DNA from: Acidobacteriota bacterium
Lineage (GTDB): Bacteria; Acidobacteriota; Terriglobia; UBA7540
Direction: 5' to 3'
Length of the DNA: 38,778 nt
Assembly: GCA_902812415.1 (NCBI GenBank)
Contig: CADDZJ010000030.1
Span: 1-38,778 of the forward strand
A program made the position numbers and the translations under genes. Under the pieces are notes generated by a model. That model was not told the origin of the DNA. It searched no databases and worked only from the letters and a program-made list of their open reading frames with translations. Shown piece after piece: positions 2,505-34,313 of this stretch (positions within the stretch are counted from its first letter, which is position 1; every line of letters begins with the position of its first letter).

Positions 2505-2580
2505 TCGCCTATTCCAGCCGGGGAGGTAAATGTGTGTTTTCTTTAGTCCATTCACATCCAAACGAAAGGGGAGAAGAACT

Positions 2581-7102: not shown

Positions 7103-7220
7103 CGCTGCGAATGAATTAATCCGCGGCGTTGTCGCGGCGAACGATGTTCGCCGAAGGTTGGGAAAACAAAACGCCGGCGATCACAGATCGCCGCTACAGC
7201 GAGATTTTTTCACAACTTCT
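7103..7220. repeat. REPIN, subfamily B, left arm of a long inverted pair
   Basis: The inverse complement of this ~118-bp stretch aligns without gaps of note to 9181-9298; the outer 47 bases (7174-7220) differ at only one or two positions. Each copy holds two inverted REP hairpins of the form GTAGCGGCG-ATC-TGT-GAT-CGCCG and GTAGCGGCGAACGACGTTCGCCG-like. The stop codon of the glycosidase gene (7181-7183) lies inside it. Confidence 0.85.
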
Positions 7221-8995
7221 GACGAATTGTTCCTGACGTCCACCCAGGCGGGATTGGACCACGCTGACGCCCCCTGATTATTGTAGGCCCGCAGCCTGTA
7301 AGTAACGTGACCTTTTACGACGTGGGTGTCTTGAAACGTCGTCTGCCCGCCTGCCATTTCACCCACAATCTTCCAAGGCCCGTAATTGATAGAGCGTTCA
7401 ATCTCCAGGCGGTTTGCATGGGTATACGTTTTCCAGCGGAGCGTGACCGCATTGCCGGTGTGCAGCGCCTGAAGCTCGCCGGGTGTTTCCGGCACCAGAG
7501 GCCAATTCAAATACGAAGCATCTGCAACGGCCATGACGCTGTCCTTCAAAGGCACACGGAGTTCCTTTCGAGCCTGCCACTCAAGCGGCGTCACGGCGCT
7601 TGTACGAACGTCGATCAGGACAGGCTTGCGAAGGTTAGGATCGGAGACCTTCAGGTTCACGTCAATGGGAGTGAAATTATCCGCAGGTTCCGCAATGACG
7701 GCCAGCCAGAAAGCATAAATGCGCTGGCCGGAGACCTTATCCCGAAACGCATAGCTCTGGAGTTGGCCATGCGTGTATTGCGCGGGAACCCCTGCGATGC
7801 TGAATTCCGCCGTCGGATCAATCGCGGTTTCGCCAAAAAGGGCGGAAGTGACCTCAAACGCGCGATAGGCTTCACGAGGCTTGAAAGCGTCCGGACCGGG
7901 AGTCCTTCCGTTGATGATCCCATAAAGATTGTCTTCATTTCCGTCCGTGCCTGGGACAAGCTCCCACATGAACGCTTTCACGCCTTGGGCCAGATTATAC
8001 AGATAAAATCGCGGAACGTAGCGCGCCTGCACGGATTCATTCGAGTTTTTCCAGAGCGGAGACACATCCCATTCGTTATCCCAAAATTGAACTTCGTTCC
8101 GCATTCCCGGCACGTGCATGATCGCGGCGCGAAATGCAGATGCATGCTCCAGCGTGTCGGCCTCTTCGGGCATGTGGTTGGAGCCAAAGCCGGGATAGGT
8201 GTGATAGGCGACAATATCTACTTTCCGAGCGCACTCCGCAAGCGCCGCCCGCGCGAAGACCAGGTTTGGGCTGGACGTTCCGGCTGAAATCACCTTAGCC
8301 TGCGGGTCAGTCTGGTGCACCACATCGGCAAAGCTTGACAACAGCCGGCCATAGGCTTTGGCCTTTGCAACAAGCTCTTGTTTGGTTTTTGTTTGTGGTT
8401 GCCAATATCCGATATCAGGTTCGTTCCAAAGCTCCCAGTATTTCACTTCTCCCTGGTAGCGTCGAACCATGAAGCGCGCGTACCTGAGGAAGGCATCGAT
8501 CTGCTCGGGGCTGGTTGGAGGATTGAAGATCGGGTTCGGAGGGTGATCATCCGGTCCGATCCCCGGGGGCGGAAGAATCACGCGCCGAATCCGGATTGCA
8601 GGGTTGCCCTGGTAAAGTGGGTTTGAATACTGAAGCTCCATCTCAATATGGACTCCGTTTTCAGCCAGCGACCGGATCGCTTCATCCAAATCTGGCGTGG
8701 TGGCGTAGTGGCCCGGAGTCTGTTCGATCCAGTCCCAACTTGTCCGCTCCGAAGAATTCTCATACTGGCCCACGCGCACCCACTTGATGCCCGAATCGAA
8801 AATGCGAGTCCACCAGCGCTCGGTCCAGGGCAGGCGGGGCTCACGGGGCAGATCAACGTTCATGCCGAATCCATCCGCAAGCTGGTACGAGCGGCGAGGG
8901 GGGACCTGATGCGGAATTTGCTGGCCAAAGCTTTCTGTTGCGAGCAGCATGAGGATCATGCACAGCAGCACCGATAAAAACCGATGACTGAACAT
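7181..8995 (-). CDS. Secreted clan GH-A glycoside hydrolase with C-terminal fibronectin type III domain
   Basis: 604 residues from the ATG at 8995; the longer frame to 9175 begins in repeat DNA (LLLITHHSSLVT) and is rejected. Residues 1-24 are a signal peptide (LSVLLCMILMLLATESFG). Residues ~40-470 form a TIM barrel of clan GH-A: WELWNEPD places the general acid/base at Glu192, and WDNEWD at 305-310 places the likely nucleophile at Glu308, the spacing expected for GH39/GH5-like retaining enzymes. Residues ~500-590 (ETPGELQALHTGNAVTLRW ... YRLRAYNNQGASAWSNP) are a fibronectin type III module. The substrate cannot be read from the sequence; a plant or microbial polysaccharide is likely given the neighbouring TonB receptor. 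The last ~13 codons and the stop come from a REPIN, so the original C-terminus has probably been altered. Confidence 0.85.
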   Translation of the reverse strand: MFSHRFLSVLLCMILMLLATESFGQQIPHQVPPRRSYQLADGFGMNVDLPREPRLPWTERWWTRIFDSGIKWVRVGQYENSSERTSWDWIEQTPGHYATTPDLDEAIRSLAENGVHIEMELQYSNPLYQGNPAIRIRRVILPPPGIGPDDHPPNPIFNPPTSPEQIDAFLRYARFMVRRYQGEVKYWELWNEPDIGYWQPQTKTKQELVAKAKAYGRLLSSFADVVHQTDPQAKVISAGTSSPNLVFARAALAECARKVDIVAYHTYPGFGSNHMPEEADTLEHASAFRAAIMHVPGMRNEVQFWDNEWDVSPLWKNSNESVQARYVPRFYLYNLAQGVKAFMWELVPGTDGNEDNLYGIINGRTPGPDAFKPREAYRAFEVTSALFGETAIDPTAEFSIAGVPAQYTHGQLQSYAFRDKVSGQRIYAFWLAVIAEPADNFTPIDVNLKVSDPNLRKPVLIDVRTSAVTPLEWQARKELRVPLKDSVMAVADASYLNWPLVPETPGELQALHTGNAVTLRWKTYTHANRLEIERSINYGPWKIVGEMAGGQTTFQDTHVVKGHVTYRLRAYNNQGASAWSNPAWVDVRNNSSEVVKKSRCSGDL

Positions 8996-9038
8996 AGGAG
9001 TTTTTCTATGGAAGCAGTAGTGATAGCTGAAGGCTACT

Positions 9039-9479: not shown

Positions 9480-9491
9480 GCCTTCGGCATG

Positions 9492-12400
9492 TTACCAGTA
9501 AAACTTCAGCCCAAACTCCATGTTGCGCGGGTCGGTCTGAACATTCGTGATCTTTCCGAACTGGCAACCGAACTGATGCACCGCATCGATCTCCCCGTTA
9601 GGTCCCGGCGGCAAGCACCAGTGATTGTTGGGTAGGCCCAGGTTCTGGTGATTCAGGGCGTTGAAGACCTGCCACTGAATCTCGAAGTATTTGCTTTCGG
9701 AGAAGTGGAAGTCCTTGGTTAGCGCGGCGTCCAGATTCCAGAAGCCCGGAGCGCGGCAGTGGGGGCAATTCGTTCCCTCGTTGCCATACTGCCACCAGGA
9801 ATCCAGGCTGTTGTAATTAAATGGCGTGCCGTCAGGATTGAGTCCTGTAGACACTTCCTGGATCACTGTTGGATCGTTGCCGAAGTTCGCCTCAAAGGCG
9901 TTCGGATTCCACCACTGGTTTTCACGTTGCGCCAGATTGCCGCTTCGCCCGGCCGCGGGATTGCCAATGATGTTGGGCCTGCAACTTCCGATTCCATTGC
10001 AGGGCCCCGTGATCATAATGGGCACGCCGCTCTGGAAATTCCAGTTCTGCGTCAGGAGCCATCCTCCCAGAATTTTGCTCAGAGGGCCGCGCGTGAAATA
10101 GCGCCTTCCAGGGCCTGCCGGGAGCTGATAGGTGACGGCGAAGTTCAGGATCTGAGGGGTATCGTCAGGAGCAAGACCAATATAACAATTGAGACAATCC
10201 GGGTTTTCCGCCGCGGCGCTGCCGGCAAAATTTCCCGAGCCGCCCGAGATGGCGCCGGGAATCAGTGATGACCGGCCCACCGCGCGCGCCAATGTCGTGG
10301 GCGTCGCCGTGTTGCCGATGATGCTTCCGTAGTTCGCGGCTTCGATATTCTTCTGAATCGTGTAGGCGACGATGAAGTTTAGCCCGTGGCTGTATCGCTC
10401 TTCCCACCGAAGCTGAAACGAATTGTAATCGTTGAAGCCATTGGGTGAAACGTTTGCGAAAAATCCTCCGTATTGCGGATAAGGCCGGAAGGCGATGTCG
10501 CCCGGGCAGTCCACCTTATTGGGGATTGTCGGGTCTGCGGGGCAACCGTAAAGCGGCCCCAGGGATGCGTCTACCGGAACGGGGTTTGTGATGTTAGTGC
10601 GCAGCTTTTGCCGGACAGCCGTTGGAATGTAGTTGTAGCCACGGAATTCATCACCATAAAGGTGCATCCCGTGGGTTCCAACGTATCCCACGCTGAGACT
10701 CATATTGGTCGAAAGCTGCTGCTGAATGTTGAAGCTCCATTGTTCCACGTAAGGATCTTCAGGCGCTTTCAGGAAAAGATTGAAGCCGGTCGTCAGGAAC
10801 TGATCGTTATCCCTTTTGGCGAAATCTGCGGGAGGCAGATTGAGCGGCGGAGCGCCCTTGCTGAGCTGGAACGCCGGGCGTTGCCCTGTGAAGTCCCCGT
10901 TATAGGCCACGAAATTAGCGAAGGCGGGCGCGCTGATGGCGCCGTTCTGGTCGCCAAATGCCGAGCTGATGCCATTGCTGAAGATGACGCCATAGCCTCC
11001 ACGAATAACTGTCTTGCGGCTCTTGAATGGCGACCAGGCAAAGCCAAAACGCGGCCCAAAATCAGGTCCGTTGGCCGGAAATACCGTCCGGGAGGGGTGC
11101 TGGGGCGTCCCGAAATAGACGATGGCTCCCTTGAAGGGCACATCCGGGTTCTGAGCGTTGAAGTCAAAGTTAGCGAGGTCGTTATACCGTTCGTAGAACC
11201 AGCCGAAGTAGTCGTAGCGCAAGCCGAGATTTAACGTCAGGTTGGGTTTGACGTAATAATCGTCCTGAATGTAAGCGCCCCAGTAATTGTTGGTCTGCCA
11301 GGGAGCGTGGTAAGTGCCGGTGCCTGATCCCTGGTCCACGGCTCCCATCAGAAATTGAGCAAGCCCGGCGCCACCCTGGCCTGTTACAGGATCCGCCGTG
11401 AGCCCTCCGCCGAAATTGAGGCCGTAACCCCATCCCGCGATATTCCAGTTGTTATCGCGCCGGAACATCATGCCTGTTTTGAGCGTGTGCTTGCCCAGGA
11501 TTTTGGTCACATTATCGGTAAACGTGTAAGCCTGAACGCCTTGAATTCCGTTCTGCCACTGTTGCTGGCCGACGCTTGCGAGGCCGCCAATGCCGATGGT
11601 CGGGACCACTTGAGTGGGGGGAAAGAGAATGAAATTGAGATTTTTGACCTCATTCTCCACAGCCGCCGTGTCGGCGACGCTGTCTGGATTTGGCGAGGCG
11701 ATCTGGTTTTGCCGGCTGAACTCCATCCGTGCTTCGTTGAGGAGTGTCGGCGTCAAAGCGGAAGTGAAGCCGACGGTCGCAATCTGGTTGATGGTGCGAT
11801 AGGGTTGCGCGCCTGCGATACCGGTGCTGGTGGGTGCGGTTGCGCCATTCCAAGGATAGCGATAGTTGGTGTAGTAACTGGGGTTGAAGAGCCATTCTAC
11901 AAAGAGTTTGTGCTTCGATGACACGTTCTGGTCAACTTTGATCGAGATGTTGTGCGTGGTCTGGCTGCTGCCCACCGGCCCGATGAAGTTGTTGCACGTT
12001 ACGCCGCAGCCGCCCGGCCCTTGTTGCAAGGGATCGATGAAATTTGGAGCGGGATAGCTTTTGACGTAAAACGCGGCTACGGGATCGATCATGCTCTGGG
12101 GAATCACCGGGGTGGTGAAAGGCGTTCGGTGGAAAAGGCCGTTTGCGTCAGGCCCCACTGTGGAGTAGGGGTTATAAAGACAGTTGGTGGCTCCATTCAC
12201 GCCGCAAACCGGCGCCAAAGCAGGGTCTTGCGTGAAATCGCCGTTGACTTCTCCCGGCAAGGGAACGGTCAGCAGCATCGGCTTGTTTTCGTGGAGCATT
12301 GAAATGTCCCACGAGGCGAAGAAGAAGGTTTTATCCTTGCCGTTATAGATATGCGGCAGGTCAATTGGGCCGCCGATGGTTCCCCCGAAGTCGTTATAGT

Positions 12401-13298
12401 TTTCGGCAGGCTCCAGGAATTCAACTCCCTGCGAGTTCCGGCGGTCGAAGGGGTTTGTGGCGTTGAAGAAGGAGTTGCGGTTGAACTCGTAGATGTCGCC
12501 GTGAACCTGATTCGTGCCTGATTTCAGGACGACGTTCACCGCCGCGCCGCTGGTGCGTCCATATTCCGCCGCCAGCCCGTTATCGACAACGTTAAATTCG
12601 GCCACCGCGTCCGGAGAGGGATTGACCACCACGTTTTCCGCGCCCAGCGCGGCGTTGAGACTGCCATCCAGATACCAGGCGTTGGCGCCTCCCTGGCTGC
12701 CATTGGCGCTGATTCCTGAACCCACCAGATGCTGAGGATCGGGAAACCCTCCGAACTGGCTGTCGAAACCAAAAACGGCGCCCGATGGTCCGGTGGATTG
12801 AGTTACGCCTGGAATCAATTGAACCAGCGTCTGAATATCACGACCCGGCAGGGGAACGTTTTGAATGTATCTTCCCGCCAGGTTGGTTGAGAAATTGGAA
12901 GGCGCGCTTTGAACCAATGACGGAGCGGCTTTGACCTGAACCACCTGCGTTGTGCCGCCGACTTTAAGCTGAGTATCCTCCTCGGTTGTGGTATTGGCGC
13001 TGACCACCACATTCGTAATGTCCACCGATGCGAAGCCCGGAGCTTCAATGTGAATGGAATATCTTCCCGGCACAAGCTCGGGAGCCAAATAAAGACCATC
13101 AGAATTTGTGGTCAAGACGGCTGAGACCCCGGTATCGACGTTTTTGACAATGATCTTCGCCCCCGGGACGGTCGCCCCTTGCTGATCTGTGATTCGCCCC
13201 TGAATGTTTCCGTGATTGAGCGATGCGTACAACAGTCCGATCCCGGCAAATATCATCAGGACGAAAATCAAACTTACGTCCTTAATCTTCCGCGTCAT
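9492..13298 (-). CDS. Oar-type TonB-dependent receptor (receptor A)
   Basis: 1268 residues; AAGGAGG lies four bases before the ATG at 13298. Residues ~8-27 are a signal segment. Residues ~30-110 (GRITDQQGATVPGAKI ... PGRYSIHIEAPGF) are a carboxypeptidase-regulatory-like (beta-sandwich) domain, ~120-280 a TonB plug region (VPLPGRDIQTLVQLIPGVT, NAWYLDGSLNA, KSGTNQVHGDIYEFNRN), and the rest a large outer-membrane beta-barrel with repeated aromatic strand patterns, ending EFGLKFYW with the terminal aromatic residue needed for barrel assembly. This domain order and size are those of the Oar-like receptors expanded in Acidobacteriota. It probably imports a large ligand such as an oligosaccharide. 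It lies between two glycosidase genes on the same strand. A promoter candidate lies ~235 bases upstream. Confidence 0.92.
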   Translation of the reverse strand: MTRKIKDVSLIFVLMIFAGIGLLYASLNHGNIQGRITDQQGATVPGAKIIVKNVDTGVSAVLTTNSDGLYLAPELVPGRYSIHIEAPGFASVDITNVVVSANTTTEEDTQLKVGGTTQVVQVKAAPSLVQSAPSNFSTNLAGRYIQNVPLPGRDIQTLVQLIPGVTQSTGPSGAVFGFDSQFGGFPDPQHLVGSGISANGSQGGANAWYLDGSLNAALGAENVVVNPSPDAVAEFNVVDNGLAAEYGRTSGAAVNVVLKSGTNQVHGDIYEFNRNSFFNATNPFDRRNSQGVEFLEPAENYNDFGGTIGGPIDLPHIYNGKDKTFFFASWDISMLHENKPMLLTVPLPGEVNGDFTQDPALAPVCGVNGATNCLYNPYSTVGPDANGLFHRTPFTTPVIPQSMIDPVAAFYVKSYPAPNFIDPLQQGPGGCGVTCNNFIGPVGSSQTTHNISIKVDQNVSSKHKLFVEWLFNPSYYTNYRYPWNGATAPTSTGIAGAQPYRTINQIATVGFTSALTPTLLNEARMEFSRQNQIASPNPDSVADTAAVENEVKNLNFILFPPTQVVPTIGIGGLASVGQQQWQNGIQGVQAYTFTDNVTKILGKHTLKTGMMFRRDNNWNIAGWGYGLNFGGGLTADPVTGQGGAGLAQFLMGAVDQGSGTGTYHAPWQTNNYWGAYIQDDYYVKPNLTLNLGLRYDYFGWFYERYNDLANFDFNAQNPDVPFKGAIVYFGTPQHPSRTVFPANGPDFGPRFGFAWSPFKSRKTVIRGGYGVIFSNGISSAFGDQNGAISAPAFANFVAYNGDFTGQRPAFQLSKGAPPLNLPPADFAKRDNDQFLTTGFNLFLKAPEDPYVEQWSFNIQQQLSTNMSLSVGYVGTHGMHLYGDEFRGYNYIPTAVRQKLRTNITNPVPVDASLGPLYGCPADPTIPNKVDCPGDIAFRPYPQYGGFFANVSPNGFNDYNSFQLRWEERYSHGLNFIVAYTIQKNIEAANYGSIIGNTATPTTLARAVGRSSLIPGAISGGSGNFAGSAAAENPDCLNCYIGLAPDDTPQILNFAVTYQLPAGPGRRYFTRGPLSKILGGWLLTQNWNFQSGVPIMITGPCNGIGSCRPNIIGNPAAGRSGNLAQRENQWWNPNAFEANFGNDPTVIQEVSTGLNPDGTPFNYNSLDSWWQYGNEGTNCPHCRAPGFWNLDAALTKDFHFSESKYFEIQWQVFNALNHQNLGLPNNHWCLPPGPNGEIDAVHQFGCQFGKITNVQTDPRNMEFGLKFYW

Positions 13299-13713: not shown

Positions 13714-16700
13714 TCAAACCAATTTGAAGGGTACGTCTTGCGCATGCCCGGTAATCACATCATGGATACGCACTCGCCAGCGGCCTTTCAGATCGTTGTA
13801 GGCGAAAAAGAAGCGTTCCGTGTGAGGCGTGGACCTTACAAGCACATTTCTGGAATAAAGTTCGTAGGCGCGACCGTCTGGCGTGAAGAACTCCAGCCGC
13901 ACAACCCTGAAGGTTGCCTCCGGCAGAGGGCTTTCGTCTGTCAGTGCAATGGTTAATGAATTGCCGGCCTGAAGCTGCTCAGTCGCCTCAACGCGAAGCT
14001 GAGGAACGGGCGCAGGAGTGCGGCTGAAAACCACAGGAGACCACGGCTCAAGAACCGTTTGGCATTTGGCCGTAAGGCCGATTTCCTGACGAGCGCGAAC
14101 GTCATAGGTATGCATCGAGCCAGACCAATTGATGGTGATTGGAGCCGGCGTCTCGAGGAACGCGTTATCAATCTCTCCGGCCCATCCTGGAGCTTTGCTG
14201 GTCGGGTAGTTTCCCCACCCACCGTCGTCGAACTGTGGATTGCGAAAGATGGCCACATGTTCGTAGGCGCCGTTCGCAAAGCGAACAACTTCTGTTCCTG
14301 GCAATCGCTTGCCGTCAGGACCCAGCACACGAACACGCGGCTCAATCTGCGCAAGTCCCAAAACGCCCTCGACAATTTCCGGCAAACTCGTGAGCGAATC
14401 GGGTTGCAGGCGGTCGTAAGCGTAACCGGAAACTTCGAGATTCAAAAAAACAGCCTTGCCGCGACCGAAATTGTTTACAACGACCAACGGCACACCGCCG
14501 CTCTGCGCAAGCGCCCGGCCAGTCGTCACGCCGGTGGTCTCATCACCTGGAATCACATGAAGTTGTTTTCCCTGGAGGCGAAGCGACTGCTCGTCAGAGC
14601 GCCCTACAGCATTTTGCGCCTTTGTCTGCGCCTTGACGCGATGGATGCCTAAGACGTCATCCAACTGACCTTGCCCCCGGTCGCGGCCATGCTCGTCCAT
14701 GGACGCCGCACGGTAGTCTACAATCAGCAGTCCGCCTTCATGGACAAATCGCCGAATCTCGCCCGCCTCGAGAGCGCTGATGGCCACCGACTGCGGCATG
14801 ACGAAAGCGCGGTATTGCCCCGCATTCAGTTTTCCGCCCTCAATCTGGCCGCGACCGACAAATTCGTACTGCAAGCCAAGGTCTTCAATGAGTTTGGTCC
14901 AACTATTCCGCAGCCCTGTAAAATGACTGTAGCGATCTTCCCCGCTATGCAGCATCCATTCGCGCGCGTTCTGGACGTTATCGAGCAGCCAATGAACCTG
15001 CATGGAAGCCTGCGAATAGTGGATGGCGATGCCATCGTGCAACCGCCGGGTGTTGATGAAAAGCATACCGAGGCCATCATGAAGCTCCTTAAAAACGCCG
15101 GCAAACGTCATCGCTGAAGGCGTAAGTTGCCGGGTCTGCGGGTCAACAAACCGATACTCAGGAATCAGATCATCCCAGATCAGAGAGCCTCGATGTCCGT
15201 GAAACAGTCCCCACCAGATTGGTCTCACCGCCCGCTTCTGGAAAAGACGATCCTGCGCAGTCAGAGGCGTTCCAGGCCGATGCTCGAATCCGTGCGTGGA
15301 AACCATAATAACTTCCGGATTGAGCGAGCGGATCACTTCCACATTGTTGCCGATGTTATACGGCTCGATGACATCAATGGCTTTGACGACGTTTTCATAG
15401 TTGTACCAGCCGAAGGCAAAGGGCGACTGGCCTCCTTCGGTCGAACAACGGGCGTGCGGGTCTTCGGCTTTGCAGACAGCGCGGGCGCGCGCCACCGCCG
15501 CAGCGAATGTCGAGTCCATGAAGTTGCGAAAGTCGCACCACGGAGAAACGTTCCACCTTTCCGTTGAGCGAACTTGCGCGAGCTCATGATAGAAACGTTT
15601 GAGAAAGGCGGCCACTTGTGCCCAGGAGGCGAAGCCGGTAGGTTGCTCCGGAGAACTCCAGGTGGTTTGGCTTCCCCAGCGGGTGTTTGCCTGCTCAAGC
15701 GATCCCAGCTTTTTTCCCAAGGCTACGTCTGTCAACTCCGGGATAGACCGCGTCTCCCTCACGACCGCGAGCACCGGCTCCCAGGTGTCGCGAGATCCCG
15801 AATCTTCCCTGGGAACGGGGAAGCGCGTGCCCCAGGCTTCGTTCAATCCGGCAACCGAGCCGTACTTGGTTTGCAGGGCTGCGATGGCCACCGCTTCAAA
15901 AGCCCGGTCGGTTGTCGTATAGCTGGCCATCAAGCCGTTCTGCAACCCGTGCGCGCCATTGCGTAGGCTTTCGTCATCCCATCGAGTCAGTTCACCCACA
16001 GACCATTGACTGCCCACTGCCGCAATGGAACCGTACAGATTGCGGAGGTATTCGGCGAATTTGATCGTGCAGTGTGGCGCGTGGCAGAAGTCATTCGGGC
16101 GGATCTGATCGCCTTGCCCCAGTTCGTCCGCGATGTTATAAAAGAGCGGCCGAAAGGCGCGGTGCATGCGCGCGTAACGTGTCACACGCTCCCGAACATA
16201 CTCGTCGGTTTTGGGATCGTTGACGCAGGGCTTCCGAACCCAGAGCGCCAGATCGTTCCGGTCGAACTCCACTTGCGTCAGCAAGCCCCTCCAGAGAGGT
16301 TGATTTTTGTGATAAATCGAGAAAACCTCCCAGGCCATCTGTTCGACGTAAAAATTGAAATTGTTATCGAGCGCTTCCTCCCAATCTTCATCGCGGTAAG
16401 CGATGGTTCCATCCACTCCCGCTTTGCGGAGCATGTCGTAAAACCCATCCGGGTAATGCGCCCACATGATCACGTGAAAGTCATCCCAAGGCTTGGCCGC
16501 CGGCGAGACCAAAAACCGGGCTCCTTCGGTTTGCTCAACGCCATCCACCCAGACTCGAATCCAGTTCCGGTAAGTCAGACCGCGAGACATCTCAAAAGAA
16601 AAATGCTGCGGCGCGACGCCTGAGGTTGAAAAAGGCAGTTGCGCTTCTCCGACGATGCGCCCAAAGCTATCGATCCATCGAACCACCGACACTCCTGAAG

Positions 16701-16914: not shown

Positions 16915-16954
16915 CAATATGCACCTCGCTGTGCGGACGCAACAAGCAGCGCCC

Positions 16955-19033: not shown

Positions 19034-19276
19034 CTGGCGATGTTCTTTCAAGGATAATTGCCTCGGCAACACGAATTTAAGGGAGCGGGATCTTCTCCAG
19101 GATTTTACCAGGCGGAACAAATGCTTTTTTCGGAGAAGCCACCCAGCGATGATGAGCGGAAATGATCGACACCATGGTGAGCTGCTATTCGATGCGCTCA
19201 CTGGGAGCGAAGCACAGGCCCGCCCCTCCAAAACACCTCACTCAGCATGAGAGCGCTGAGCGATGGCTCAAGCTCT

Positions 19277-24587: not shown

Positions 24588-24896
24588 TTTACCCTCCTCG
24601 GCTGCCATAATGATCTCCCCGGTTCGTTCCCTCTACCAACCGGGCTGCCTGTATTGCCCGCTCCACAACTGCGATCCATCCAGAGGTCTGCTCGCATTTC
24701 AGCCCATTCAGAAGGTCAAATTCTGCTCGAACCGGGGGGAGCATCGGCCACGCAAAGTTCACTTCACCTTTCACCCTGCCGCAAGGTTCGTTACGGTACA
24801 GTTCCCCTGTTGTCCGCAAACGTGAGTGTTGACAATAAGATAAAAGACCAGTACAGTACCTTCCGCAGTACTCGACCCGCCCGGGAGGCGAAGATC
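24588..24896. promoter_or_regulatory. Divergent control region between receptor B and regulator-like gene
   Basis: About 310 bases lie between two divergent start codons. They contain the minus-strand ribosome binding site of receptor B, the plus-strand promoter candidate at 24829-24857, and a direct repeat GTACAGT at 24796-24802 and 24851-24857, the second copy overlapping the -10 box. This could be an operator, but a 7-bp repeat may be chance. Confidence 0.45.
24829..24857 (+). promoter_or_regulatory. Candidate promoter for the regulator-like gene
   Basis: TTGACA (24829-24834) is followed after exactly 17 bases by TACAGT (24852-24857, 4 of 6 positions). Transcription would start near 24864, giving a short leader before the GGGAGG site at 24883-24888. 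The longer open frame from 24654 would start upstream of this promoter, which supports the later start. Confidence 0.5.
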
Positions 24897-26177
24897 GTGA
24901 AGCCATCGACGAGTACCGACGCCCCGCCGTTTGCCGATGACCTTGCTCCACGTTATGCGGAAGTGCAGCAGGCACTGAGCGAAATCCTTGAAAGCGCGCC
25001 CTTTCGGGCAAGCAAGCAGAGCCAGGCTCTGCTTCGTTATATTGTCAGCCACACACTTGCCGGCAGGTGTGAACTGCTTCGAGAAAGGGTCATCGGCGTT
25101 GAGGTATTTGGCCGAAAGCCGGACTACGACACAGGCAATGACCCGATTGTTCGGGCCAGGGCTGCAGAGGTGAGAAAGCGGCTGGCTCAATATTACCTCT
25201 CCTCCGAACATCACTGCACATCAGTCCGGATCGATGTTCCTTCGGGTTCCTATAAAGCCTCTTTCGAATGGCGTTCAGACGGTTCAGGCGACTCCCGTGC
25301 GCCGTCGGAGGAAGCCGAACAGACAGTCAGCGCAGAAATGCGCCTTGAGCCGCATCAATCTCACCGCTTTGCCCTGAGGCGCGCCATCTTGGTTGCTAGC
25401 CTGGCGCTTGCTTCCCTCTCAGCCTTCCTGCTTCTGCGGCTTGTGTATACACCCCGACAGGCCGCGTTCGACCTTTTCTGGTCCCCGGTTTTCAATAGCC
25501 GTCAGCCGGTGCTGATTTACACAGGTACAAACATTGTCTACGGATTTCGCTCGGGATTTATTAACCGCTACGCGGAAGAGCACCATTTGCAAACGCATGG
25601 AGAGCAATTTCCCCTGAACCTGGAAGCTGGTCAGAAAATCGACGCCAGCGACCTCTCCGTCCTTCCCGATGGATTCATCACCACGCAAGACGCTATAGCC
25701 GGATACGCGCTGATTCTGCTCCTGGCCCGCCGCCACAGGCCGTATGAATTGCGCTATGGGCGCAACATTTCGTTTGGCGACTTCCTCTCCCGGCCAAGTA
25801 TCCTGATCGGAGCGTTCAACAACCGGTGGACGCTGGAATTGACGGATGGGCTGAGGTTTGTGTTTGACGGCGGAGATCGGATTCGGGACCGGTCTGACAA
25901 ACAGAGAGTGTGGGTTGCAGGCGGGCCGCGCGATTACGCGATTGTGTCGCGGTTACAGAATTCAGGGACCCGAGGGGTCTTGATCACGATTGCTGGCATT
26001 GGCGCCAATGGCACCCAGGCCGCTGCCGAATTCCTGACCGATCCGAAACAGATTTCATCTTTGGTGAGAAAAGCTCCACCCGGCTGGAGTCGAAAGAACA
26101 TGCAGGTCGTCTTGCACACCACCGTGGTTGAGAACAACCCCAGCGCGCCCGATATCGTGGCGACCTACTGCTGGTAG
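24897..26177 (+). CDS. Membrane-anchored regulator-like protein with N-terminal cytoplasmic domain
   Basis: 426 residues from GTG 24897, with GGGAGG eight bases upstream. Residues ~18-125 carry a pattern seen in many Acidobacteriota proteins: FRASKQSQALLRYIVSHTL, LLRERVIGVEVFGRKPDYD, NDPIVRARAAEVRKRLAQYY, VPSGSYKASF. In those proteins this domain is linked to TolB-like or TPR modules and is thought to be a winged-helix-like regulatory domain (recalled, not computed). Residues ~163-184 are a single membrane helix (ILVASLALASLSAFLLLRLV), and ~190-426 lie outside (periplasm), with a beta-rich domain (VLIYTGTNIVYGFRSG, VWVAGGPRDYAIVSRL). The arrangement suggests a periplasmic sensor linked to a cytoplasmic domain that controls the divergent receptor gene and the receptor downstream. 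The control role is inferred from position. Confidence 0.7.
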   Translation: MKPSTSTDAPPFADDLAPRYAEVQQALSEILESAPFRASKQSQALLRYIVSHTLAGRCELLRERVIGVEVFGRKPDYDTGNDPIVRARAAEVRKRLAQYYLSSEHHCTSVRIDVPSGSYKASFEWRSDGSGDSRAPSEEAEQTVSAEMRLEPHQSHRFALRRAILVASLALASLSAFLLLRLVYTPRQAAFDLFWSPVFNSRQPVLIYTGTNIVYGFRSGFINRYAEEHHLQTHGEQFPLNLEAGQKIDASDLSVLPDGFITTQDAIAGYALILLLARRHRPYELRYGRNISFGDFLSRPSILIGAFNNRWTLELTDGLRFVFDGGDRIRDRSDKQRVWVAGGPRDYAIVSRLQNSGTRGVLITIAGIGANGTQAAAEFLTDPKQISSLVRKAPPGWSRKNMQVVLHTTVVENNPSAPDIVATYCW

Positions 26178-26496: not shown

Positions 26497-29400
26497 ATGA
26501 ATATTCACCGCCCCTCGGTCTTTTTATTTTCCAAAAATTGGCAGGTCTATTTTCTCCTTGCGCTTGGGCTGTGCGTCGGGTTTTCAGCAACCGTTCACGC
26601 CCAGCTTGCTACCGCCACCATCAATGGCACCGTGAAGGATACAACCGGCGCGGTCATCCCTGAAGCGACGGTCGTTCTGCAGGATGTGGCCACGGGAGTG
26701 AAGCGCGTCGTCACGACCAACGGAGTGGGAGTGTATGTGATACCGGATATTCGTCCTGGACGGTATACGCTTCAGGTGAGCAAGCAAGGCTTTATGACGG
26801 CTCAGCAGGCGGAGTTCAATCTCTTTGTCAATCAAACCGCCACTTTTGACATTACCCTTTCAGTGGGGTCTGCAACGCAGACGGTCAGCGTTGTGGCAAC
26901 GGCTGCTCACCTGGAAGCTTCCACCTCCGAAATCGGCACCGCCATTAACACAACCGACGTCAACGATTTGCCACTGAACGGAAGAAATTTCACAGAACTG
27001 CTCTCCCTGACTCCCGGCGTAAGCCCGGTGAGTGTTTCCCAGAACAGCGGCGGCGGAGGGGGATGGGCGGGTCAGGCGATCGGCTCATTCACGTTCCCGT
27101 CTGTGAATGGCCAGACAAACCGCAGCAATTTGTTCTACATGGATGGAATTAACGATGAAGGCTCCTTCATCAGCAGTTACTCCACGCCACCGATTGTAGA
27201 CCAAATCCAGGAATTCAAGGTGCAGTCGCATAATGATTTGGCCGAATACGGTCAGACGCTGGGCGGGATCATCAACGTCGCAACGAAATCAGGCACCAAT
27301 CAGTTTCATGGAGATGCCTGGGAGTTTCTCCGCAACAACGCCTTTGACGCCCGAAATCCTTTTCTGGACACCGTGCCTCCCTTCAAACAGAACCAATTCG
27401 GCGGCACCGTCGGCGGTCCGATTGTTTTTCCCCATTACAATGGCAAGAACAAGACGTTTTTCTTTGCCGCTTACGAAGGCTTTCGCAATCACACGTCAGC
27501 GCAGAGCTTATATCGTGTCCCAACGCCGGCGGAACTCAACGGCGACCTGAGCGATATCGTCGACAACAACGGAAATTTGATTCAGATTTACAACCCCTTC
27601 ACCACCCGGCCCGACCCGGCTAATCCTGGAGAATTCATCCGCGATCCTTTTCCCAATAACCAGATTCCAGCTAGCCTGATCAATCAGTCGATGGTGGGTT
27701 ATGCCAAGGCTATCTTCCCAGCGCCGGTAACCACAAGCACTCGCGGAATCAATGGAATTGACACCACGCCGGTGATCACACGGCAGGACGTGGGCAGCTT
27801 GCGTCTCGACGAACAAATAAATGAGAAGAACCAGCTCTGGGCCAGATACTCGGGCTACACCCAGCCCGATAGCAGCTCCGGAGGCTTCGTGGGAGCTTTT
27901 GATGACACCTTCATCCACGGGTATAACGTGGGCGTTAACTACACTCACGTCTTCAGTGGAAATATGGTGATGGATGCAGAGTTTGGCCGGAACAGCGATC
28001 AAGCCAACATCAACAGAAACAATAAGGCGCCGGCAAATCTGTGGCAACAGCTTGGGTTTTCGCCTAATTTTGCAGGTAATTTCGTCGGCAATCGGGCATG
28101 GAATCCAGGGGTCAGCATTCCTGGATTTGTCGGCTGGCTGCCCGGAATTCAGTACACGACCCTCTCGAACATCTATGAGATAAAGGGGGACCTGTCAATT
28201 GTCCACGGGCATCACACGCTCAAGATGGGCGCCGACTTTAACAGCAATAATGTTGGATCGCCCATCGAATATCTTTGCGACAGCTTCTGCTCATTCAATA
28301 CTGCGAACCCGGAGGCCAAGAATATCGTAACAGGCAGCGCTTTGGCTTCGTTCCTCTTAGGCGTGCCCAACAGTGCTAACCGACGTAATGTCTTAGAGAG
28401 CGAGCACGGAGGATGGGTGGATGGCCTTTATTTCCAAGATCAGTGGAAGGCCACCAGCAAGCTGATGGTCAACATGGGTCTGCGTTACGACATGACGCTC
28501 ATTCCCCTTTACGGGCAGGGCACGAATGCGCTAGTCGGAGATCTTGACCTCAACAATGGAACTTACATCCTCCAAAAGATGGCGCCGCCCTGTTCCGCAA
28601 CTCAGGGCGCGCCTTGCATACCAGGCGGGCAACTTCCGGCGCACGTGGTGCTGACTCCCTTCAAAAACGGGGCCATTTATCACAACACTTACGACAACAT
28701 TCAGCCCCGGTTCGGGCTGGCCTACCGTCTGCGCCAGAATACCGTGATTCGCGCCACCTATGGCCGCTTCTTCGACAACTGGGCGGCTATTACCCAGACG
28801 GCTCAGAACTATGAGGGAACTTGGCCGAGCATCGGCCAACTGATCGCCTCAAGCTTGAATAATCCTACGCCCGCGAACCCAACACCGACTGTCTCTGCGC
28901 TCGATCCGTTCAACTTGGGCTCCACTCAACCGCTGCCAGCGCCTACGCCCTTCAACCAGGTGCAATGGTTTATGAACCCCAAATTCCAAAACCCGGAATC
29001 AGACCAATGGAATTTGGGCGTGCAGCAACAGTTGGGCCTGAACACGGTGCTGACGCTGAACTACGTAGGCTCCGTCAGTCGGCGCACGGATGTGGGCGGT
29101 TACAACAATGTGGCCGTGACGCCAGGACCCGGCAATCCACAATCGCGAGCGCCATATCCCTACATCACGCCCACATTCTATGACAACAGCTATGGAAGCG
29201 CGAATTACAATGCGTTCCAGTTCTCCCTTAACAAAGTCACCAGCAAAGGGCTCACTTACCTTGTTTCCTACACCTGGTCGAAGGCCATGGACTATGGCTC
29301 GGACGGCTGGTACGGCGCGGAAGGAACCCTGATTCAAAACCCCTACGACCGAAGAAATGCGTACAGTGTTGCAGGGTTTGACCTGACCCATATGTTTTCA

Positions 29401-29916
29401 GCCAGCGCTGTTTATCAGTTGCCGTTCGGCAGAGGGAAAAAATTCCAATCCGGAAGCCGCGTGCTGGACGCTGTGATCGGCGGCTGGCAGCTTAACGGCA
29501 TCGCAACCTTCGATTCTGGGCAGCCGTACTCAATTACGGCTCCTGCCGGTAGCGCCAACACGGGGAACATCTGGCTGATGGCAGACCTGGTCGGCAATCC
29601 CAATCTTTCGCATCGAACGCCAGCCGAGTGGTTTAACACTGCGGCCTTCGGGGTTCCGGCACCGTACACCTTCGGTACCGCAGGACGCAACATCTTGCGC
29701 GGAAACTGGTTCCACAATGTTGATCTGTCGCTGTTCCGTGCGTTTCCCATTTCCGAGTCGAAACGGTTTGAATTCCGCTTTGAGGCGTTCAATGCCTTTA
29801 ATAATCCAACATGGGGCATCCCCGACTCCTCGATCACGGATCCTACATTCGGGCAGGTGTTAGGGACAGCCAGCACGCCGCGGCAGCTTCAATTTGCTCT
29901 CAAGTTCTATTTTTGA
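26497..29916 (+). CDS. Oar-type TonB-dependent receptor (receptor C)
   Basis: 1139 residues; AGGAGGT lies eight bases before the ATG. The signal peptide spans ~16-36 (VYFLLALGLCVGFSATVHAQ). Residues ~40-125 are the carboxypeptidase-regulatory-like domain (GTVKDTTGAVIPEATVV, PGRYTLQVSKQGF), ~140-280 the plug (LPLNGRNFTELLSLTPGVS, KSGTNQFHGDAWEFLRNN), and the rest an outer-membrane barrel ending QLQFALKFYF. It follows the regulator-like gene in the same direction after ~320 bases and precedes two Tat-exported glycosidase-like genes, so uptake of their oligosaccharide products is the natural guess. No SusD-like partner is present. Confidence 0.93.
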   Translation: MNIHRPSVFLFSKNWQVYFLLALGLCVGFSATVHAQLATATINGTVKDTTGAVIPEATVVLQDVATGVKRVVTTNGVGVYVIPDIRPGRYTLQVSKQGFMTAQQAEFNLFVNQTATFDITLSVGSATQTVSVVATAAHLEASTSEIGTAINTTDVNDLPLNGRNFTELLSLTPGVSPVSVSQNSGGGGGWAGQAIGSFTFPSVNGQTNRSNLFYMDGINDEGSFISSYSTPPIVDQIQEFKVQSHNDLAEYGQTLGGIINVATKSGTNQFHGDAWEFLRNNAFDARNPFLDTVPPFKQNQFGGTVGGPIVFPHYNGKNKTFFFAAYEGFRNHTSAQSLYRVPTPAELNGDLSDIVDNNGNLIQIYNPFTTRPDPANPGEFIRDPFPNNQIPASLINQSMVGYAKAIFPAPVTTSTRGINGIDTTPVITRQDVGSLRLDEQINEKNQLWARYSGYTQPDSSSGGFVGAFDDTFIHGYNVGVNYTHVFSGNMVMDAEFGRNSDQANINRNNKAPANLWQQLGFSPNFAGNFVGNRAWNPGVSIPGFVGWLPGIQYTTLSNIYEIKGDLSIVHGHHTLKMGADFNSNNVGSPIEYLCDSFCSFNTANPEAKNIVTGSALASFLLGVPNSANRRNVLESEHGGWVDGLYFQDQWKATSKLMVNMGLRYDMTLIPLYGQGTNALVGDLDLNNGTYILQKMAPPCSATQGAPCIPGGQLPAHVVLTPFKNGAIYHNTYDNIQPRFGLAYRLRQNTVIRATYGRFFDNWAAITQTAQNYEGTWPSIGQLIASSLNNPTPANPTPTVSALDPFNLGSTQPLPAPTPFNQVQWFMNPKFQNPESDQWNLGVQQQLGLNTVLTLNYVGSVSRRTDVGGYNNVAVTPGPGNPQSRAPYPYITPTFYDNSYGSANYNAFQFSLNKVTSKGLTYLVSYTWSKAMDYGSDGWYGAEGTLIQNPYDRRNAYSVAGFDLTHMFSASAVYQLPFGRGKKFQSGSRVLDAVIGGWQLNGIATFDSGQPYSITAPAGSANTGNIWLMADLVGNPNLSHRTPAEWFNTAAFGVPAPYTFGTAGRNILRGNWFHNVDLSLFRAFPISESKRFEFRFEAFNAFNNPTWGIPDSSITDPTFGQVLGTASTPRQLQFALKFYF

Positions 29917-30275: not shown

Positions 30276-31412
30276 ATGATCACACGAAGGGCTTTTTTAA
30301 AAAGCTTGTCGCTTGCGACAGGAATGCCGGAGGCCGCAACCTTTATCAGTTTATCTGCTGGAACAGCGAAATCGATTCTTGTTCCCAAGCAGATCAAAGC
30401 GTTCTGCATCGATTTTAATTGGGTCTATGCGAATGGAACAATGAAATTCGCGCCCCCAGGCCACTGGGCAGATGCGTCTCCCGAAGAGCATGTACGCTGG
30501 TATGAGGATCTGGGCGCCAACGTCATACAAACATTTGCTGTTTCATGTAACGGATATGCATGGTATCGACATGGTTTTGTGCCTCCCCAACCCGGGCTGA
30601 TGCATGATTTCCTTCCCGACATGGTTAAGCTCGGCCACAACAAGGGAATGCTTGTGATGGGCTATTTTTGCGTCGGCGCCAATTCAAAGTGGGGCAAAGA
30701 GCATCCTGATCTCAGTTATGGCGCGCCTTTCACTCCCCATATTCCCTTCACCGATAAATACCTGGATTATCTTTGCAAGTCCATGGAAGACGCCATCCAA
30801 AAAACGGGGATGGACGGTTACATGATTGACTGGGTCTGGAACCCCTCTGAGAAACTCCGAGAAAATGGCTGGTTGCCCGCGGAACAGAAGCTATTCACAC
30901 AACTTACTGGCAGACCCTTTCCGAAAAATCGCCGCCCGACAGGGGAGGAGAAGCTGGAGTATGAACGCAAAGCGATCAACCGTTGCTGGGCGCGCATCAA
31001 GGAGAGTCGCGACAGGACGAACGCCAAGTGCATTTTGTGGCTTTCCGTCAATAATCTGGCCAATCCGACCCTTCACAACTCACCCATGCTCAAGCAGGTC
31101 AACTGGGTGATGAATGAATCGCCAGATACGAACCTATATAGGCTTGGCAAGAAAATGATTGGCGCGCAGACACGCATGCTTCAGAATATTGTCGGATGGC
31201 CCGCGCACAATGCGGAGAAATTCCTCGCTGATCCCAAGAACCGCGCGCTTGACTTGTACGGTTTTGCCATGCCGAGAGCCAATTCACTGCCGCTTCCGAT
31301 TGAGGAATACCTGAGCAAGCCAGTAAATGATTTCACGAAGCAGGGAATCTTCAGTATCAATGATAGAAATATTGCTGCGCTGGCGAGGTTCTATCGAGGC
31401 CTGCCTCTGTAG
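30276..31412 (+). CDS. Tat-exported TIM-barrel glycosidase-like protein
   Basis: 378 residues. The N-terminus MITRRAFLKSLSLATG is a twin-arginine signal. The remaining ~340 residues read as one TIM-barrel domain: a conserved early strand (IKAFCIDFNWVYANG), a substrate-loop region (GANVIQTFAVSCNGYAWYRHG) and a strand-end acid at Asp185 (MDGYMIDWVWNP), in the position of the catalytic nucleophile of GH29 alpha-L-fucosidases and related barrels. Assignment to GH29 itself is uncertain; it may belong to an uncharacterised GH-like group (GHL). The ribosome binding site is weak. It lies between receptor C and a GH95-like gene, also usually an alpha-L-fucosidase, so fucosylated glycans are a reasonable guess for the substrate. 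Confidence 0.7.
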   Translation: MITRRAFLKSLSLATGMPEAATFISLSAGTAKSILVPKQIKAFCIDFNWVYANGTMKFAPPGHWADASPEEHVRWYEDLGANVIQTFAVSCNGYAWYRHGFVPPQPGLMHDFLPDMVKLGHNKGMLVMGYFCVGANSKWGKEHPDLSYGAPFTPHIPFTDKYLDYLCKSMEDAIQKTGMDGYMIDWVWNPSEKLRENGWLPAEQKLFTQLTGRPFPKNRRPTGEEKLEYERKAINRCWARIKESRDRTNAKCILWLSVNNLANPTLHNSPMLKQVNWVMNESPDTNLYRLGKKMIGAQTRMLQNIVGWPAHNAEKFLADPKNRALDLYGFAMPRANSLPLPIEEYLSKPVNDFTKQGIFSINDRNIAALARFYRGLPL

Positions 31413-31613
31413 AAGGCGTTTTCTCTCCAAAAGAGTATAAGTTTTTTCTCAAGGCCCGACGTCTGTAAGGCGCGCCGCTCCTTGCAGAGTTGCTTCTGTC
31501 TCAGATCAATAATTGGATTGCCAGTGTTCGAGCTAGGCGCGTATTTTAATGCAGCCGGATACCTGATTTGCTGTGGTATTGTCCCTTAATGTCGTAGACG
31601 AGCGGAGGTTGTG

Positions 31614-34313
31614 ATGAAAACGACTCGGCGAAAATTCTTACAGACTTCGGCGGCAGCCAGCGCAGCAGGCTTTGTGCCCACTCCGGCCCTTGAGACGACA
31701 AAAAGCACAGCCCTGCAACCAAGCCAGATCGCAAAAAGGCATTCGATTGTCCGCGCTATCCCCGGCCCCAATTTTTTTGAAGGGATGCTTTTAGGGAACG
31801 GTGATGTCGGGGTCTGCGTCGTCGTCCGGCCAGACGCCTTTGGCCTTCACCTGGGAAAGAATGATGTTTGGGATATCCGCGTGGACGAAGAGAGCGCGAA
31901 GCGCGTTCTTCCTTTCCCTGAACTCCTCAAGCTCTGGGAAGGCGCCAGCCAGGAAGCAAAGCAGCTGGGGAAACCTGACCTGTTGTATCTGGAGACCAGC
32001 ATCCCCTTTTTCCGCGAATACACCGAAAAAGTGAGCGAATCTTACGACCGCAGAATCTGGCCTCGCCCGTGGCCCTGCGGAACCGTTTGGATTCACTGGG
32101 ACCCGCGATGGGTTCACGCAGGCGCTCAGATCCTCGACATTTCGGACGGATTATTAAATGTTGAATTTCAGTTGAATCGGACGCGAAGCGATACTCGCAA
32201 GCTGAAACTTTCCTGCTTTGTCGATTGGGAAACGGGGCTTATTTCTGCCTCCACCGATGGGCCGGCGCCGTTCACTTCCGTCGATTATTATCCTGAACAG
32301 GACCGCCCTCAGAGTTCTCCGGTGGGTTCGCCTGCAAGTCAAGAGTCATGGGGACTGCTGCCGCCGCCGGAAATTGATGGCCGGTCAGCGCAAGGCTATG
32401 CGGAGTTTTCCTGTTTGCAGCGGCTCCCGGCGACCGGTCCCACCCTGGAAAACCCTCAGCCATCGTCTTCTGACAAAGATCGCAATTTTGCTCTGGCGGC
32501 GCGCCTGAACGGAAATTGGCAGTTGGAAGGCCTGAAGGAGAGCCAGGAAAGGCTCCGCCAGCGTGGCGTTACGTTTCCAAACACCTACACGCATTATTCT
32601 TGCGCTCCGGGCATTTACCTGCGGAGCAGCGCCGAGCAGCCGTTTCGCCTGGACCTGAAAATCGTGACACCCCGTGACATCTTGCTGGAGAGTCTGGAAC
32701 GGAAGGCGGCCGCTGCGGGTGAAGAGAACCCGTGGATTCTGATCCCTCAGGATCGCGGCTACGCCGCCGAATGCGCCGAAACTCTATCACACGCGCGGGA
32801 AGTGGTCGCTCAACTGGCGAGCCGTCCTGTGGCTGAAATTCGGAGCGCATCTGCGACGAACTGGAAGCGCTTCTGGTCGCGCTCCGCCGTAAAATTTGAA
32901 GATAAGGAACTCGAAAAGATTTGGTACCACAACCAGTACTTCCTTGCCTGCTGTTTGCGCGAGCGAAAGACCGCGCCGGGCCTGTTTGGCAACTGGATGA
33001 GCGGCCCGATCGGCACAGCCTGGCATAGCGATTACCATTTGGATTACAACGAGCAGCAAATCTATTGGGGAGTTTTCTCCAGCAATCATGTTGAGCAGCA
33101 CTTGCCTTACGTGGAGATCTGCCAGAATCTGCTCGGCATGTGCGAGGCTTTCGCGCGCGAGAAGATGGGATATCCGGGCGCCTTTTACCCGGTCTCCGCC
33201 TATCCCGCTCCAAGCCAGGCGATCCCTTATCCTGCGCCGCCCTGGGGTTATCAAGTCTGTATGACGCCGTGGACGGTTCAGAGCCTCTGGTGGCAGTACC
33301 TTTATACCCAGGATCTGGACTATCTCCGGCGCGCCTATCCCATCCTGCGCTCAGCAGCCCGCTTCTTGGCGGCCTACGTGAAGAAGGAGGGGGATGGAAA
33401 ATACCACATTGTTCCCACAGTCTCCTCCGAAAATTGGGGCTTCACGGTGGATTATCGACTGAACAAGGATTGCATTCTGGACCTCGCCTTGACGGAGTTC
33501 CTGCTCGATGCGGTCATCGAGGCCTCAGGCCTTTTGGGGACAGACGCCCAGGAGCGAATCAAGTGGAAAGAAGTCCGCAAAAACCTGGCGCCGTATCCAA
33601 AAGTTAAGGAACCCGAAGGCGAAGTCTGGGTGGATGTGGTCAATGCGCCGCCCGAGCACGTTTATAACGTTCCCCTGACGCTCGGCCCAGTCTTCCCAGC
33701 CGAACAGGTGGGCCTAGGGAAGCATGAAGAGCAGCTTCCGATAGCGCGACGCACGGCGCGCCTCGTGCGACTGGAAGGCGGCAATGACCTGGTCTTTCAA
33801 CCGCTCGTCCGCGCGCGGCTTGGCATGCTGGATCTGGTCTGGTTCAAGAAACAAGTGCAGTACTGTCTGCTGCCGAATGGCGCAGCTGGGGATCGGGTGC
33901 GCCAGGTGGGCGGCCGATACAACGATTCCACGTCTTTCGATTTCATGATGAGGATGGGCATCTGGACTGAGAATCTCGCTTTGCCGGCCGTGCTCAATGA
34001 ATGCCTGTTGCAGAGTTATACCGGCGTCCTTCGCCTGTTCCCGAACCGGCAGAATCTGGGGTCCGCGAGATTTGAGAATCTGCGCGCTGCCGGAGCGTTC
34101 CTGGTGAGCGCGTCTTATGATGGTCATTTTGTTTCTGAAGTTTCGTTGCTGAGCGAAAAGGGAAAGACCGCGCGGCTGCTGAATCCCTGGACTCCGCACC
34201 GCGCCCGCGTCAGCCGCATTCGCGATGGTCAACGTATCCCTGCCCGGCAGGAACAGGAAATTCTGGTTTTTGACACCCACGCGGGCGAGCGTTATCGCGT
34301 CGAGCCAGCCTGA
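31614..34313 (+). CDS. Tat-exported GH95-like glycoside hydrolase
   Basis: 899 residues from ATG 31614, with GGAGG five bases upstream; the GTG just before it is too close to that site. The N-terminus KTTRRKFLQTSAAASAAGF is a twin-arginine signal. Residues ~45-330 form the GH95-type N-terminal beta domain (GMLLGNGDVGVCVVV at ~58, LHLGKNDVWDI at ~79), and ~400-760 the (alpha/alpha)6 barrel (GTAWHSDYHLDYNEQQIYW at ~465, SSENWGF at ~605, CILDLALTEFLLDAVI at ~619), followed by a C-terminal beta domain. GH95 enzymes are mostly inverting alpha-1,2-L-fucosidases, some act on galactosides. The match is distant; other (alpha/alpha)6 glycosidases are possible. The gene ends eight bases from the convergent pyrD. 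Confidence 0.75.
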   Translation: MKTTRRKFLQTSAAASAAGFVPTPALETTKSTALQPSQIAKRHSIVRAIPGPNFFEGMLLGNGDVGVCVVVRPDAFGLHLGKNDVWDIRVDEESAKRVLPFPELLKLWEGASQEAKQLGKPDLLYLETSIPFFREYTEKVSESYDRRIWPRPWPCGTVWIHWDPRWVHAGAQILDISDGLLNVEFQLNRTRSDTRKLKLSCFVDWETGLISASTDGPAPFTSVDYYPEQDRPQSSPVGSPASQESWGLLPPPEIDGRSAQGYAEFSCLQRLPATGPTLENPQPSSSDKDRNFALAARLNGNWQLEGLKESQERLRQRGVTFPNTYTHYSCAPGIYLRSSAEQPFRLDLKIVTPRDILLESLERKAAAAGEENPWILIPQDRGYAAECAETLSHAREVVAQLASRPVAEIRSASATNWKRFWSRSAVKFEDKELEKIWYHNQYFLACCLRERKTAPGLFGNWMSGPIGTAWHSDYHLDYNEQQIYWGVFSSNHVEQHLPYVEICQNLLGMCEAFAREKMGYPGAFYPVSAYPAPSQAIPYPAPPWGYQVCMTPWTVQSLWWQYLYTQDLDYLRRAYPILRSAARFLAAYVKKEGDGKYHIVPTVSSENWGFTVDYRLNKDCILDLALTEFLLDAVIEASGLLGTDAQERIKWKEVRKNLAPYPKVKEPEGEVWVDVVNAPPEHVYNVPLTLGPVFPAEQVGLGKHEEQLPIARRTARLVRLEGGNDLVFQPLVRARLGMLDLVWFKKQVQYCLLPNGAAGDRVRQVGGRYNDSTSFDFMMRMGIWTENLALPAVLNECLLQSYTGVLRLFPNRQNLGSARFENLRAAGAFLVSASYDGHFVSEVSLLSEKGKTARLLNPWTPHRARVSRIRDGQRIPARQEQEILVFDTHAGERYRVEPA

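Follow-up and report, generated by a model that had tools for sequence, protein, structure and literature searches.

What might bring together, within 27 kb of acidobacterial DNA, three large outer-membrane receptors, several predicted enzymes and a divergently oriented gene that looks regulatory, in a lineage where SusD is absent? The DNA in question is contig CADDZJ010000030.1 (C30) of assembly GCA_902812415.1, from a soil bacterium of the Acidobacteriota, class Terriglobia; the contig, analysed over its whole length of 38,778 nucleotides, is here termed the window, and the source genome comprises 4.84 Mb in 261 contigs. The answer that we favour, with a probability of about 0.6, is that the stretch from 7181 to 34313 is a composite, SusD-free carbohydrate-utilisation locus resembling those known as CUT loci, and that its divergent gene, REG, encodes a saccharide-responsive inner-membrane regulator of a receptor promoter. 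Exported glycosidases and an exported M28-type peptidase would cut a glycan or glycoconjugate, Oar-type TonB-dependent receptors would import the resulting fragments across the outer membrane, and REG, seated in the inner membrane, would bind or respond to a saccharide with its periplasmic domain, upon which its cytoplasmic winged-helix domain would control the divergent promoter of the receptor gene OarB and perhaps OarC too. Gene content, the lack of SusD, a transmembrane segment in REG and the repeated divergent pairing of its relatives with receptors are observed, and the folds are predicted; binding of DNA by REG, its sensing of sugar, the direction of control and the nature of the substrate are what we infer. 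The features on which the argument first turns are these.

24897-26177, plus strand: REG, predicted one-component regulator spanning the membrane (start codon GTG, preceded by GGAGG; program-made reading frame from 24654)
REG residues 17-125, 157-183 and 186-426: predicted winged-helix-like N-domain, transmembrane helix and periplasmic alpha/beta domain, respectively
24829-24857, plus strand: possible sigma-70-type promoter of REG, TTGACA-17-TACAGT (motif scan; two such sites were found against 1.3 in shuffles, i.e. near chance)
20865-24608, minus strand: OarB, Oar-type TonB-dependent receptor, divergent from REG (Pfam)
9492-13298, minus strand: OarA, Oar-type TonB-dependent receptor (Pfam)
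26497-29916, plus strand: OarC, Oar-type TonB-dependent receptor (Pfam)

Gene content was read from a Pfam scan of 18 open reading frames (ORFs) of the window, none shorter than 150 amino acids (aa) and a part of those of that length or more; several start codons (those of REG, the M28 peptidase and a GH-A-like protein) were trimmed inward from the program-made ORFs by reading the sequence. Each of the three receptors has the N-terminal CarboxypepD_reg domain (PF13620) and the OMP_b-brl_4 barrel (PF25183; E 7.5e-176, 2.1e-155 and 3.2e-222) by which an Oar-type receptor is recognised. A first-pass annotation, made by a model from the letters alone, had proposed three such receptors, and also an M28 peptidase, TPR proteins and a divergent regulator-like gene with genes on both sides, all of which are present by Pfam or ORF layout.

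Why should REG be thought to serve a receptor? A contig scan with 12 aligned members found 382 REG relatives, of which the best 80 were analysed. For 76 of these the contig includes an upstream neighbour, and 38 of the neighbours are Oar-type receptors in divergent orientation (35 whole, three fragments), at a median gap of 171.5 bp; in the more similar half of the relatives the count is 24/39. Control ORFs of 350-600 aa from the same loci have a divergent receptor in only 4/236 cases, a figure biased low as the divergent side of a receptor is often occupied by REG itself, and from the density of receptors in the genome one would expect a few per cent by chance. The source genome has five copies of the N-domain by profile search (C30, C40, C170, C20 and C179), and the four that can be evaluated are all divergent to a receptor, the C179 copy being at a contig end. 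Over 36 pairs, REG distances and receptor distances are correlated (Pearson 0.69, reached by none of 5000 permutations; the nearest neighbour agrees in 16/36), though less so by Spearman (0.22) and among pairs with <60% REG identity (0.39), and this suggests that the two are inherited together. What follows the receptor is also suggestive: among 43 proteins (of 46 listed) encoded one or two genes after it in 24 REG-paired loci, GH31 occurs in 16 and TPR in 11, and the cultured Granulicella mallensis X5P3 (L057) has GH31-GH3-receptor with REG divergent. For comparison, 38 neighbours of 15 receptors without REG, at nine loci of the source genome picked from its PF25183 list (one neighbour was dropped by a length filter), include TPR in five and GH39 in two; GH31 is not among the 25 families listed for them, where single matches may be hidden.

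What kind of protein is REG? Searches of Pfam (E<=10), NCBIfam (E<=0.1) and PDB sequences (E<=1) gave no match to it. All 74 aligned members contain a hydrophobic 19-mer (mean Kyte-Doolittle hydropathy >=1.6), and an AlphaFold2 model built on them (mean predicted local distance difference test, pLDDT, 87.7) has helices within 17-101, a hairpin at 110-125, a helix at 157-183 and an alpha/beta domain at 186-426; hydropathy and model thus agree on a single transmembrane helix between N-domain and periplasmic domain. Foldseek candidates were re-aligned to give Z (VIA), 119 chains for the N-domain. In the full model, residues 21-123 align with the DNA-binding domains of SaeR (Z 7.1), GlnR (6.5) and ArlR (6.3). 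With the N-domain modelled alone (pLDDT 90.1), the first 15 rows, from eight proteins, are all OmpR/PhoB-type DNA-binding domains at Z 7.4-5.9, the best being PrrA (Z 7.4, 3.5 Å, 89 aligned), SaeR (7.0) and PhoB-DNA (6.5), after which ScpB-like proteins are mixed with three more of OmpR/PhoB type. The basic residues R86 and R93 are invariant on the presumed recognition helix, 84-101. An OmpR/PhoB-like winged-helix fold is thus likely, and we grade it no higher since the E-values of Foldseek itself are not significant. It finds support in the company that the N-domain keeps: paralogues combine it with a pair of malectin domains (L200, L201, L202; lowest PF11721 E 7.8e-41), with TPR (L203, L206) or with PD40 (L205), and a PF00486-TPR protein of the source genome is built in the manner of the TPR form. 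Of the malectin forms, L200 (C179) and L201 (C20) are from the source genome, and an Oar-type receptor lies divergent to two of the three; the remaining one is at a contig end.

On the periplasmic side of the model, residues 190-426 align with BcsB (Z 11.3, 3.2 Å, 161 aligned) in what we take to be its second flavodoxin-like domain, and further rows are GH67 (Z 10.6), GH115 (10.3) and GH84 (9.7). The predicted alpha/beta fold of 186-426 is what REG shares, at Z 9.7-11.3, with the C-terminal region of BcsB and the N-terminal domains of those glycosidases; it differs from them in sequence (9-16% identity) and in hanging from a single transmembrane helix that leads to a cytoplasmic domain. BcsB itself, according to passages of PMC11379886, consists of repeats of carbohydrate-binding-like and flavodoxin-like domains.

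How widespread is REG, and has it been met before? A protein search found matches in 28 of 61 genomes, the source and its relatives from genus to class level. By record title, 79 of the best 80 of the 382 relatives are acidobacterial and one is from Nevskia soli (L122). In a sample of 119 genomes spread evenly over the phylum, the N-domain is present in 13, the source included, and nine of the 13 are in the same class, so that the family clusters in certain lineages. Among the titles and abstract starts listed from the open PMC literature none concerns a REG-like regulator or SusD-free acidobacterial loci, and the TonB-related passages of PMC7074687, PMC11542873, PMC3174227, PMC7661733 and PMC4850484 describe neither. 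REG would seem, then, to represent a family of membrane-spanning switches that has not been described before. That it is, more fully, an undescribed acidobacterial family in which a cryptic OmpR/PhoB-like winged helix and one transmembrane helix carry exchangeable saccharide-sensing domains, BcsB/glycosidase-accessory-like or tandem malectins, with many members that serve a particular Oar-type receptor operon lying divergent to them, is a proposition to which we give even odds. A survey of transmembrane transcription regulators (TTRs; PMC10269533) relied on Pfam DNA-binding models and for that reason would probably have missed the family. With the ToxR/CadC-like TTRs REG has in common a predicted N-terminal winged helix, a single transmembrane helix, a periplasmic domain and paralogues with TPR or PD40; it departs from them in an N-domain without a Pfam match and in a periplasmic domain that is BcsB/glycosidase-accessory-like or malectin. 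As a separate observation, an ASPIC/UnbV-FG-GAP protein is encoded directly after REG on the same strand at seven loci (L062, L068, L070, L075, L079, L082, L116), and an ASPIC protein is also found at the left edge of the window (2-1444), ~23 kb from REG.

The enzymes and the TPR proteins make up the rest of the stretch.

5268-7004, minus strand: TPR1, TPR protein (Pfam), just beyond the span of the first-pass annotation and perhaps the last gene of the minus-strand run
7181-8995, minus strand: clan GH-A-like glycosidase with Sec-like leader and WNEP motif (program ORF from 9175; sub-threshold matches only)
13714-16914, minus strand: GH42-like protein (Pfam GH42M E 1.4e-9, GH42 E 5.2e-5), twin-arginine-like leader read from the sequence
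16955-19033, minus strand: exported M28-type peptidase (PF04389 E 3.4e-10; likely start near 19033, program ORF from 19231)
19277-20749, minus strand: TPR2, TPR protein downstream of OarB (Pfam)
30276-31412, plus strand: GHL6 putative glycosidase (PF14871 E 8.5e-13), twin-arginine-like leader
31614-34313, plus strand: GH95-like protein (GH95 catalytic domain E 1.7e-36), twin-arginine leader (TIGR01409)

Four glycosidase-like proteins had been proposed, of which the GH42-like and GH95-like ones stand. The GH-A assignment is weaker, resting on the WNEP motif as read and on matches below threshold (PF00232 E 0.0026; NF051901 E 7.9e-6), and the supposed GH29-like barrel is GHL6, with a weak GHL10 match and no match to a GH29 model. 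The twin-arginine-like leaders make export of the GH42, GHL6 and GH95-like enzymes probable. Two of the four had further been likened to alpha-L-fucosidases, a claim that the results do not support. The GH95-like protein retains E607 (the acid Glu) and N480, invariant in 9/9 aligned proteins, and yet it and seven close orthologues have MG[IV]WTEN where the solved 8zbv and 2rdy have PPFQIDG, in a region where the alignment carries an insertion. E607, N480 and the FQIDG region are, we assume, the catalytic Asn/Glu/Asp set of GH95 alpha-1,2-fucosidase. Its reading as a fucosidase is therefore doubtful, and with the barrel being GHL6 and the GH95-like group departing at one catalytic region, fucose as substrate was set aside. 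In the M28 protein H361, D369, E407, D432 and H513 (program-ORF numbering), presumably the metal ligands, are invariant in 5/5. Its C-terminus has, beyond the peptidase domain, a strongly conserved segment of ~60 residues (ALYWCDGHRNL...FDFVGYFRFLR.HGF).

Is the locus kept together in relatives? It is modular. With GH42 orthologues defined by >=55% identity over >=800 aa, M28 and GH42 are <=4 kb apart in five of five genomes (G018, G026, G013, G001 and G007, the last with three ORFs between), and in four of them the cluster also contains an OarB homologue of >1100 bits, the one without it being G001, where the contig stops inside GH42. TPR2 adjoins OarB in G026, G013, G007 and a fragment from G023. 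Two more genomes, G011 and G023, have GH42 fragments only, and no M28 was seen beside these on their contigs of <6 kb. The GH95-like protein has orthologues of 61-70% identity in several family members, and GHL6, with which it recurs separately from the M28 module, is directly before it in L177 and ~7 kb away in L182; in L176 a receptor is two genes before it. Neighbourhood conservation, which the first-pass annotation had suggested as a check, thus exists for M28-GH42-OarB-TPR and, in many Acidobacteriota, for REG beside receptors, and does not extend to the 27-kb stretch as one unit.

Is the lack of SusD remarkable? That no SusD-like gene is visible, as had been stated, is borne out: the SusD family has no match in the scanned ORFs, and PF07980 and PF14322 have zero matches in the source genome, with a positive Bacteroides control. 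But PF07980 (SusD_RagB) has no match in any of the 61 genomes, again with a positive Bacteroides control, so that the lack is a property of the lineage, ordinary rather than distinctive. The SusD-less state as the novelty of the locus was rejected on this ground, and as something already known in CUT loci (passages of PMC1790865). Glycan foraging on Oar-type receptors without SusD remains the best reading, shorn of fucose, of the distinctiveness of lacking SusD and of the whole stretch as a unit.

With which known system does the locus compare? CUT loci, named in 2007 from Xanthomonas and Caulobacter, combine TonB receptors with carbohydrate enzymes, and passages of PMC1790865 relate that no SusD-like protein was detected in Xanthomonas and that 'partial' CUT loci occur; putative CUT loci have been reported from Verrucomicrobia as well (in passages of PMC5615132). 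In the window too, by Pfam, receptors lie beside carbohydrate-degrading enzymes, and the likeness extends to a predicted regulator, to many receptors per genome and to the absence of SusD. Unlike in CUT loci, the receptors are Oar-type with CarboxypepD_reg and an inner-membrane transporter is absent from the 18 ORFs; moreover REG is a predicted membrane protein, whereas SuxR was proposed, in the same passages, to meet sucrose inside the cell. From the polysaccharide utilisation loci (PULs) of Bacteroidota, which also cluster receptors and enzymes with a dedicated, often membrane-spanning sensor-regulator, the locus is set apart by the want of PF07980 in 61/61 genomes, by a REG without two-component domains and by OarA and OarC having no SusC/RagA model among their NCBIfam matches at E<=0.1, a scan that covered those two receptors. 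NCBIfam, we take it, contains such a model. The locus is not a Bacteroidota PUL; most likely it is comparable to a CUT locus whose switch is ToxR/CadC-like. The Acidobacteriota rank with the most common bacteria of soil, and in genomes of this kind Oar-type receptors are encoded by the dozen. If our reading is true, the ligands of REG-family sensor domains would indicate the cargo of the paired receptors, the family would add a class of transmembrane regulator probably overlooked by Pfam-based surveys, and in Acidobacteriota it would correspond to what SusR/HTCS (hybrid two-component system) control is in Bacteroidota.

Could the locus be for scavenging glycoproteins or peptides, with receptors that take up peptides or glycopeptides, M28 as the key enzyme and glycosidases that merely deglycosylate? 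GH42 and OarB have in M28 their most constant partner, and its five presumed metal ligands are invariant, as noted above. GH42-like orthologue fragments adjoin a GH20 gene in G011 (L150) and a GH123-like gene, below cut-off, in G023 (L148). GH20 and GH123 are N-acetylhexosamine-type families, and these neighbours, hinting at a glycoconjugate substrate that contains N-acetylhexosamine, raise slightly the odds of this alternative, which is still rather unlikely. However, no fucosidase signature holds, and the commonest enzyme in REG-paired receptor operons elsewhere is GH31, not a peptidase. Of the earlier suggestion of a fucosylated or glycoprotein substrate, then, the fucose part has gone and the glycoprotein or glycoconjugate part survives in this form, M28 being the constant neighbour of GH42.

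Or are receptors so numerous that three near glycosidases form no functional unit, each operon having its own purpose? Three receptors within 27 kb are a cluster, yet such receptors are common in the genome, which has at least 66 PF25183 matches at 65 places in its 4.84 Mb, a lower bound given that 65 of 108 candidates were scored and OarB of the window was not among them. (One match, at C7:38890-41586, has an in-frame TAA.) The lack of conservation of the 27-kb stretch as a unit also suits chance assembly, as do GHL6 and GH95 without an adjoining receptor in L177 and L182. Against it stand the constancy of M28 with GH42 and, in four of five genomes, the OarB homologue, together with a REG-receptor pairing far above control, and we consider it unlikely. 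That REG is a membrane protein of other function, such as an inner-membrane scaffold that connects the envelope with receptor or TPR proteins, its winged-helix likeness being coincidental, would suit the absence of any matching Pfam DNA-binding model, an N-domain Z only near 7 and the resemblance of its C-domain to an envelope protein, BcsB, but is quite improbable in view of OmpR/PhoB-type DNA-binding domains in 18 of the top 22 rows for the N-domain, the invariant R86 and R93, an N-domain joined, like that of other transmembrane regulators, to extracytoplasmic domains of several kinds, and a divergent orientation that is common for local regulators.

Several results nevertheless weigh against a CUT-like locus under a saccharide-responsive REG. 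Half of the REG relatives with a readable neighbour (38/76) have no divergent receptor, and in the less similar half only 14/37 have one; no REG was found in the 36-37 kb around the M28-GH42-OarB clusters of G026 and G013. A shared operator was not found in the upstream regions of OarA, OarB-REG and OarC, the best agreement, 14-15/20 matches, being equal to that of six shuffles each. No family of inner-membrane sugar transporter was matched among the scanned ORFs. The best E-values from Foldseek itself, 0.028 and 1.1 for the two models, are not significant, and a Z near 7 falls within the range of common arrangements. As the C-domain rows above Z 8 also include 9fsa (Z 11.1), an S-layer anchoring domain from an archaeon, its fold is no proof of sugar binding. 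Comparison by hhalign of the N-domain profile with nine PF00486 (Trans_reg_C) domains of the source genome gave a probability of 1%. Kinship to Trans_reg_C at the sequence level was accordingly rejected, Pfam giving no match and the hhalign register being plausible yet not significant; judged by sequence, REG is not a member of that family.

Some minor observations remain. Repeats in two intergenic stretches resemble short chance pairs. To the left of the locus, exported-looking proteins without usable Pfam match are encoded at 2530-3573 and 4299-5054, one of them cysteine-rich, and to the right of the GH95-like gene come dihydroorotate-dehydrogenase genes and then gatB.

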